NCBI GenBank assembly: GCA_008933995.1
Contig: WARS01000026.1
Coordinates: 4,850,501-4,914,500 of the forward strand
Direction: 5' to 3'
Origin: Datnioides undecimradiatus
Lineage: Eukaryota; Chordata; Actinopteri; Lobotiformes; Datnioididae
DNA: 64,000 bases
Under the pieces are notes generated by a model that saw only the letters and a program-made list of their open reading frames with translations, had not been told where the DNA came from and ran no database searches. Positions 56,601 through 63,718 of this stretch are shown here, in pieces (position 1 is the first letter of the stretch; the number at the start of each line of letters is the position of its first letter). The position numbers were made by a program, and so were the translations under genes.

Positions 56601-59600
56601 AATAGTCTTATCCACTTAGTATATTGTTCATTCCTCTCTTACCACAGTTACATAAAAAATTAAATGCAAGTAAGGTTTTGTAAATTAACTGACAAAGAAT
56701 TATGGAGGCCACCCTGCATTAATGCGCTCCTAATCCCCACCAAAATTAATTGGTTTGGGATTTTGCCAGAGAGTCATAATGTCCCATATTTTAAATAAAG
56801 TTTTCACTTGTTCATTAATGAAATGCTGTGCTGTGTTCCTCTCTCTAAAGACAGTGAATGTTGACACTGTCTGTCACCAGTCTCAGTACAATCTTTGTGT
56901 TTTAGGTTACAACATGACTTTAATTTGCATACCTGCATCCCCAGACACAAAGTGTTGAGCATGATTAGGAAGAACATGAGGTACTCAAAGTAGCAGGAGG
57001 TGACGATGTACCAAACTCTGTACTGGTAGGGGTTTTTGGGGATGTAGCACCTCAGGGGACGAGCCTTCAGGGCGTATTGTACACACTGACGCTGAAGGCG
57101 AGGCAGAATGTAGGTTAAAAGAAAAACAATGAATCACTCATCAGTTGAGCAGCATACTTTAGATTTGGACGGTTGTACTGTCCAGAGCATCATCTCTGAA
57201 GGCCTCGACATACCTGGTTCTTGTCCAGCTCGCAGTCCTTATACTCCTCCTCACCCTGCTCCTGGAAAGTGACAATGACGAAGCCTACAAAGATGTTCAT
57301 CATGAAGAAGGCAATAAGTATGATGTAAATGATGAAAAAGATGGACACGTCCACACGGTTGTTGAAGACAGGACCCATGTCTTCCTCGTCTGAATCAATG
57401 GCTCTGTATAACAACCTGGGAACAAGTGCAGTGAAGTTGAGAGAACAGACAGGATATGAAAGACGAAGATCAGACATAATAAAAAAAGAAATGTGTTGAA
57501 TCAAAATGAATGCTGTGCTCACTTTGGCCAGCCCTCAAAAGTGGAAACAGTGAAGAGAGCCAGCATGCCGTAGAGCACATTGTCAAAGTTGAAGTCACTA
57601 TTCAGCCATTCTCTCTTCGCCAGCACAGTGTCTTGTAGGGAATTCTCCATGTGCTTCAAGAAGTATCCCCTGAAAGCAAACACAGGAACAGTGACTCCAA
57701 AATAGCATTGTGATGGATTAAAAATTAACAGTGTGTGAACGATGGTTCTCTTACTGGCACTCCTCTGCAGTCATTTTGGAGGGATCTGTGCAGCTGTAGA
57801 ATTTACCCTATGGGGGGGGGGGGGGGGAAGAGAGAGATTGGTGACACATTTAGTACATAAGCAACAGGGCCTCCATACTACGGTAGACTAACATGTAGAT
57901 ATCACCCATCTAGTATCATCTTATGTTTTTGTCTTTTAACCTCACCTTGAAAAGTTGCACTCCTATGCAGGCAAACATGAAATTCAGCAGCATGGTGACC
58001 AGGACGATGTTGCCGATGGTTTTAATGGCCACAAACACGCATTGGACCACGTGCTGTCATTAAGGACAAAAAAAATGACCACTTAATGCTGCTGACACAA
58101 GTTTAATACAATAGAATTTTGAGGTACTTGTACTTTACTCATTTTTAATTAGCTTTACATTAGTCGATACAACTTGTAGATGCTCATAATACTTTTACTT
58201 AAGGTGGAATATGAATGTCGCTACTTTACACACTACTTGTAACAAAGTTTTTTTTTACAATGCTGTACAGATTTCCTTTACTTTTTACTTGAGTAAACAT
58301 TCTGATTTCTTCCACCATTACTGCTTGGAGGATGTATTAAAACATTTGTTGTACCTTTAACCCCTTGGCTCTATTGATGGCCCTAAGAGGTCTCAGCACC
58401 CTTAGTACCCTGAGAATCTTCACCACAGAAATAGCACTGGATCTGGACACGACACATGACAAAAAACAGTCTTGATATGCACATTTGAGAATGCTGGTGC
58501 TTGTACTTTAGGGGGGAAAGTGACAGTAGGGATGCCCTACATCTAATATAACAATCTGAGAACATTTACTCACTCCATTCCCATGGAAAGCAGTGAGACT
58601 CCGACCACAATCAGATCCAGGATGTTGAAAGAGTTACGGCAGAAGGAGCCTTTGTGCATGAAGGCTCCATATACAGTCATCTTGGTTTATACAGAGGAAC
58701 AAATGTGTTGAATCAAACTGCGTAAATTAGTGGATCAAGCAAAAATTCATCTGAAACTATTTTTAACCAAGATTCTATTATCTGTTTTAAGGCATCCTGA
58801 CTTCAAAGAATCAGATTAAATGTACTGCACATTACCTTCAGTACAATCTCAATGGTGAACACAGTTGTGAAGACAATGTCAGCATAGGCCAAAATCTGGA
58901 AAAAAGAACAGAGGGCAGTTAATAAAATTGCACATCTTTCAACAGTTAATGTCTAATGTGCAGTAGTAGACCTGTTTGTCACCTGGTTTCTGTAGGACTT
59001 GGGATCAATGGGGTCCTCAGCTGCCAGGGAGATGGATGAGAGCAGGATGAACAGAAGGATTAAGTTGGTGAAGGACGAGGCATTGATGATCTTGTAGCAC
59101 AGTTTACGGAACCTGGACACCAAAAAATAAGAAAAGAGATGCAGTCATCAGTGAGTCCAATCAAGTCATTGAAACACTGAAGTGCAACCACTCTGAGGTC
59201 TGTTATTCTCAGGTTGGTACTTGTGTTTCTTACTTGTTCTGAGGGCCAAAAATGAAAAAGGAGCTGGCTTCAGGCAGCGGAACAGCTTCTTCCTTCAGCT
59301 GCAGGTCGGCCATTGGTCGGGGGCGAGGGCTGATGGGGATTTCAGGCTCTTCCTCCTCATCATCACCTAACAGGTGGAACAAAACAGAGTCAGTTCTATT
59401 GTGAAATACAGATTTACTTGTTAGTAGGGGTAATGTTACAGCTCTACAGAAGAGAAAAATAAACCAAAGATCCAGTAAATTAACAAAAACCTCTCTGTAC
59501 TGAATTATAATGCAGACTTTATATGGTGGTCACCAGAGCAGAGTGGAAACTGCTTAACATTAGACTCTGCTATAAACGTGGCTCAGGGAATTGGCTGAGT

Positions 59601-63718: not shown

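Follow-up and report, generated by a model that had tools for sequence, protein, structure and literature searches.

The window, the whole stretch of 64,000 nucleotides analysed in this study, carries a Cav1.1 (CACNA1S) gene in which lysine stands four residues after the filter glutamate in both repeat I and repeat III, at the positions of rabbit D296 and Q1018, and in which all four filter glutamates are retained. Judging from the sequence, we consider it highly probable that the source is an advanced (percomorph-grade) teleost and the gene its fast-muscle-type Cav1.1, which acts as voltage sensor for RyR1 while passing no Ca2+. The paralogue assignment, however, comes from the pore signature only, and the match to the fish literature is therefore partly circular. 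The main change, D296K, and its effect are already published in the available text of PMC8184209; the repeat III lysine adds a minor point that can be tested.

Results

Gene model and comparison with alpha-1S

The spliced model comprises 42 exons, running from 63,718 to 50,757 on the minus strand, and gives a single open frame of 1755 amino acids followed by a stop codon. All acceptors and all donors except that of the last exon were checked, and none deviated from GT/AG. The N-terminus and IS1 fall past the window end (64,000). A search of the PDB returned 126 matching sequences (E up to 1e-10), and among the best 60 of the 126, alpha-1S was at the top with 2751.6 bits, against 2420.5 for the best alpha-1C chain and 2338.2 for alpha-1D. 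The reference used throughout is the alpha-1S chain of PDB 5gjv, which we take to be the rabbit protein. All four pore repeats are present, with their codons mapped to the genome, and the features of the gene are as follows.

50757..63718, minus strand: Cav1.1 (CACNA1S) gene from IS2 to the stop codon, by splicing, open frame and best PDB match to alpha-1S
63218..63351, minus strand: repeat I S3-S4 exon, S4 charges the same as in rabbit (by script)
62603..62808, minus strand: repeat I pore exon, MEGWTK, lysine codon AAA at 62617-62615 (rabbit D296)
61401..61626, minus strand: repeat II S2-S4 exon, S4 charges the same as in rabbit (by script)
60785..60905, minus strand: repeat II pore exon, GEDWTT, threonine codons at 60884-60882 and 60881-60879 (rabbit N617 and S618)
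59234..59366, minus strand: II-III loop exon, by the spliced model and PDB alignment; PDB alpha-1S counterpart PEIPVSPRPRPLAELQLKE
58355..58442, minus strand: repeat III S4 exon, S4 charges the same as in rabbit (by eye)
57523..57669, minus strand: repeat III pore exon, ending in FEGWP and the AA of the lysine codon (rabbit Q1018)
57214..57415, minus strand: repeat III S6 exon, whose first base G (57415) completes the lysine codon
55233..55280, minus strand: candidate exon 29 equivalent, 16 amino acids (48 bases), so named for its position between IVS3 and IVS4
54447..54572, minus strand: repeat IV S4 exon, S4 charges the same as in rabbit (by eye)
53822..53981, minus strand: repeat IV pore exon, GEAWQE, rabbit E1323 and E1327 retained

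The candidate exon 29 equivalent is in frame, and the Cav1.1 frame stays open whether it is kept or skipped; exon 29 of Cav1.1 is given as 19 amino acids in the available part of PMC9851209. The II-III loop retains the segment PEIPxSPRPRP of PDB alpha-1S. This segment has a role in coupling to RyR1. The retained S4 charges, which the original prediction had also reported, together with this segment, suggest that voltage sensing is preserved.

Over 885 aligned residues, 656 (74.1%) were identical to the 5gjv chain; this comparison took in 885 of the 1755 residues, namely window residues 1-805 minus two facing gaps, plus 82 around the repeat III pore. Of the 27 residues surrounding the filter glutamate, repeat I shares 24 with this chain, repeat II 23 and repeat III 21, and thus the pore is not generally decayed.

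The rest of the window holds other genes and repeats. An SMC1A-like cohesin gene at about 38,900-47,600 (plus strand, extent judged by eye from the open reading frames) adjoins the 3' end of the Cav1.1 gene, and a 65-residue piece close to the C-terminus of its product matches SMC1A in the PDB (8.7e-31). Coiled-coil open reading frames at about 36,100-38,100 (minus strand) resemble RIBC1 (RIB43A family) by eye, and RIBC1 neighbours SMC1A in mammals. Pieces of an Ig/FN3 cell-adhesion gene lie at about 21,600-28,200 (plus strand), with one Ig piece matching contactin-2 first and neurofascin next in the PDB. Perfect or near-perfect microsatellites occur at 11,496-11,554 (GA), 17,525-17,577 (TATC) and 19,406-19,485 (CA). 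No Rfam match was found in the whole 64,000-nt window at gathering thresholds.

Residues of the pore

The filter positions are occupied by Glu in 4/4 repeats (EEEE), as the original prediction had stated, and counting along the alignment rows they correspond to rabbit E292, E614, E1014 and E1323. Their rabbit partners at +4 are D296, S618, Q1018 and E1327, and N617 is E614+3. The repeat I lysine had been predicted as an AAA codon near 62,616, which agrees with the mapped codon, and the predicted split codon of repeat III was recovered in the spliced model, with AA at 57,524-57,523 and G at 57,415. The readings of GEDWTT in repeat II (60,896-60,879) and GEAWQE in repeat IV (53,971-53,954) were likewise borne out by the mapped codons. 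The span of 57523..62808 first given for these features needs extending, since it omits both the G of the repeat III codon and repeat IV.

The +4 residues of repeats I to IV are D, S, E and D in alpha-1C and D, A, A and E in alpha-1D. The aspartate that had been ascribed to repeat I of mammalian channels is therefore seen in all of the alpha-1S, alpha-1C and alpha-1D rows, whereas the Gln or Glu ascribed to repeat III holds for alpha-1S (Q) and alpha-1C (E) but not for alpha-1D (A). Counted in full charges, the +4 ring changes from about -2 in rabbit (D/S/Q/E) to about +1 in the window (K/T/K/E). Lysines in conducting Cav1 channels had been named as the observation that would speak against the prediction, and none stands at the repeat I or repeat III +4 site in the alpha-1S, alpha-1C and alpha-1D rows, with Cav2, Cav3 and NALCN outside this comparison.

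Lysine or arginine was gained at 13 of the 885 aligned residues, and at this rate the probability that at least two of four named sites gain one at random is about 0.0013, the four +4 sites being those flagged beforehand by the original prediction. The paired gain of lysine at the +4 sites exceeds chance expectation. The definition of the DCS ring, to which the repeat I site belongs, reportedly goes back to Cens et al. in 2007 and is independent of this finding.

In repeat IV, the turret after GEAWQE (within 53,822-53,981, minus strand) has gained two lysines relative to YGKLCDPESD of PDB alpha-1S, and the outer mouth is thus more positive at this place also.

Discussion

A probable case of a known route to a non-conducting voltage sensor

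The original prediction noted that the Cav1.1 of zebrafish and other teleosts is reported not to conduct Ca2+. PMC8184209, PMC5589907, PMC9851209 and PMC6328546 agree on it, and lysines are unmentioned in the passages concerned of the latter three. Dayal et al. (2021), citing Schredelseker et al. (2010), described three routes to such channels (PMC8184209): early teleosts, zebrafish among them, carry N617D in fast muscle; zebrafish slow muscle has E292Q; and in higher teleosts, from Lophiiformes upwards, the fast-muscle Cav1.1 combines Thr617 with D296K. The Cav1.1 in the window has Lys at 296 and Thr at 617, which is the signature described there for higher teleosts, and its repeat I change would be of the D296K type, the known third route. 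The assignment to a fish follows from the original prediction and from this signature. As for the suggestion that the two lysines might represent a different route, D-to-K at 296 with Thr617 was already described in the fast muscle of higher teleosts (PMC8184209). A zebrafish-type N617D channel is ruled out, as residue 617 is Thr (codon ACC, 60884-60882), and so is the slow-muscle alpha1S-a type, as the repeat I filter residue is Glu (codon GAG, 62629-62627).

In the available text of PMC8184209, D296K alone, introduced into a rabbit alpha1S clone and thus in a rabbit rather than a fish background, abolished inward Ca2+ current in dysgenic myotubes. By analogy with this rabbit mutant, the channel in the window would not conduct Ca2+ either. 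Regarding the two lysines as the reason for non-conduction is therefore justified for repeat I, where the change is published as sufficient, while the repeat III lysine (rabbit Q1018K) is probably dispensable for the loss of current.

A mechanism can be proposed from the published work on the outer pore. The mouse DCS ("divalent cation selectivity") locus consists of D296 and E1327, with D615 supporting, and has no repeat III residue as described in PMC8184209. In a 2025 simulation of Cav1 (PMC12146731), one Ca2+ in the outer vestibule was coordinated exclusively by D368, and the third ion was essential for efficient permeation, according to the available passages. D368 probably corresponds to rabbit D296, because it lies four residues after E364, just as D296 lies four residues after E292. 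In the window channel, the EEEE filter ring is intact and could still bind Ca2+, whereas the DCS ring outside it, which would hold the incoming ion, is minus its repeat I acid; the lysine at 296 would both remove the ion site and put a fixed positive charge in its place, and with no ion waiting at the DCS site, the ion in the filter would not be knocked on and no inward current would result. The lost DCS aspartate is the simplest account of the lost current, which is published for the rabbit point mutant and which we infer for the channel described here.

Drift or function of the repeat III lysine

No mention of the repeat III lysine or of Q1018K was found in the literature searched, outside which lies the fish pore alignment of the 2010 paper, where it may be shown; in the main text of PMC8184209, Q1018 has 0 occurrences and "repeat III" occurs twice, both times for the filter glutamate. 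A comparison of the repeat III pore segment with viral contigs gave 141 pattern matches, 0 of which were confirmed.

There is about an even chance that this lysine is the product of neutral drift, at a site left free to change once D296K had stopped the current. The repeat III +4 site is variable (Q, E, A) among conducting Cav1 channels, and drift is therefore favoured; D296K alone is enough in rabbit (PMC8184209), and the step from CAG (Gln) to AAG (Lys) takes one base change. However, at the background of 13/885, a gain of lysine or arginine has a chance of about 1.5% at this site and about 4% across the remaining three +4 sites taken together, and the remaining repeat III filter, STFEGWP, is unaltered compared with the reference alpha-1S.

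Repeats I and III lie opposite each other. It is conceivable, but on balance doubtful, that the repeat III lysine is functional, with K296 and K1018 facing each other across the vestibule, repelling cations and blocking a monovalent leak. Such a leak is a real issue for these channels, as E1014K is robustly permeable to Na+, K+ and Cs+ and a slight outward Cs+ current is seen in E292Q with Ca2+ present, whereas N617D does not let Na+ through when conditions are near-physiological (PMC8184209, available text). The two lysines gained in the repeat IV turret would also fit this reading. Nevertheless, the variability of the repeat III site suggests tolerance, no leak data for D296K were found in the literature searched, and leak depends on conditions, as N617D passes Mn2+ and Ba2+ without extracellular Ca2+ (PMC9851209, in the part available). 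Going one step further, one might speculate, with rather low expectation, that the paired-lysine Cav1.1 of some advanced teleosts has turned the DCS ring into a cation-repelling collar sealed to monovalent and divalent cations, a step beyond D296K.

Conduction and artefact

It is highly improbable that the channel in the window still conducts Ca2+. The four filter glutamates are in place, as are D615 and E1327, and because the latter two are retained, some acid is left in the vestibule, which counts against our explanation; however, D296K by itself abolished inward current in rabbit (PMC8184209, available text), and neither lysine occurs in the alpha-1S, alpha-1C and alpha-1D rows compared. 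It is scarcely credible that the lysines arise from misassembly, from a pseudogene or from joining at the wrong splice site, as no supporting sign was found in the window gene model: none of the splice sites checked in the 42 exons is non-canonical, the open Cav1.1 frame without internal stop rules out a pseudogene, the lysine in repeat I is consistent with the change that PMC8184209 reports for teleosts, and a wrong junction at repeat III is ruled out by the single candidate donor, since a scan of 40 positions starting at the filter-Glu codon met one GT, which is the one used (57,522).

Significance and comparison with known channels

The window gene provides a further intact natural sequence in the evolutionary series that left fish muscle with its voltage sensor but without the calcium pore. 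Monovalent leak is the point on which the available text of PMC8184209 contrasts the E1014K and N617D mice; should the second lysine be functional, one could test cleanly whether the DCS ring governs such leak in addition to Ca2+ entry.

Among the known systems, the closest is the fast-muscle Cav1.1 of higher teleosts (D296K and Thr617), and the channel in the window likewise has Lys in place of the repeat I DCS aspartate and Thr617, but it adds the repeat III lysine (Q1018), which is unmentioned in that account as available (PMC8184209). The zebrafish fast-muscle alpha1S-b (N617D) is alike in that the residue responsible for non-conduction lies beside and not in the EEEE ring; however, its added acid binds Ca2+ too tightly, whereas the window channel has Thr617 and would have lost conduction together with an acid in repeat I. 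The zebrafish slow-muscle alpha1S-a (E292Q) is also a non-conducting Cav1.1, but its EEEE ring is altered and that of the window is intact. Finally, the PDB alpha-1S chain 5gjv shares the filter glutamates and the S4 charges with the window channel, and differs from it in having D296 and Q1018 where the window has Lys, and N617 and S618 where the window has Thr.
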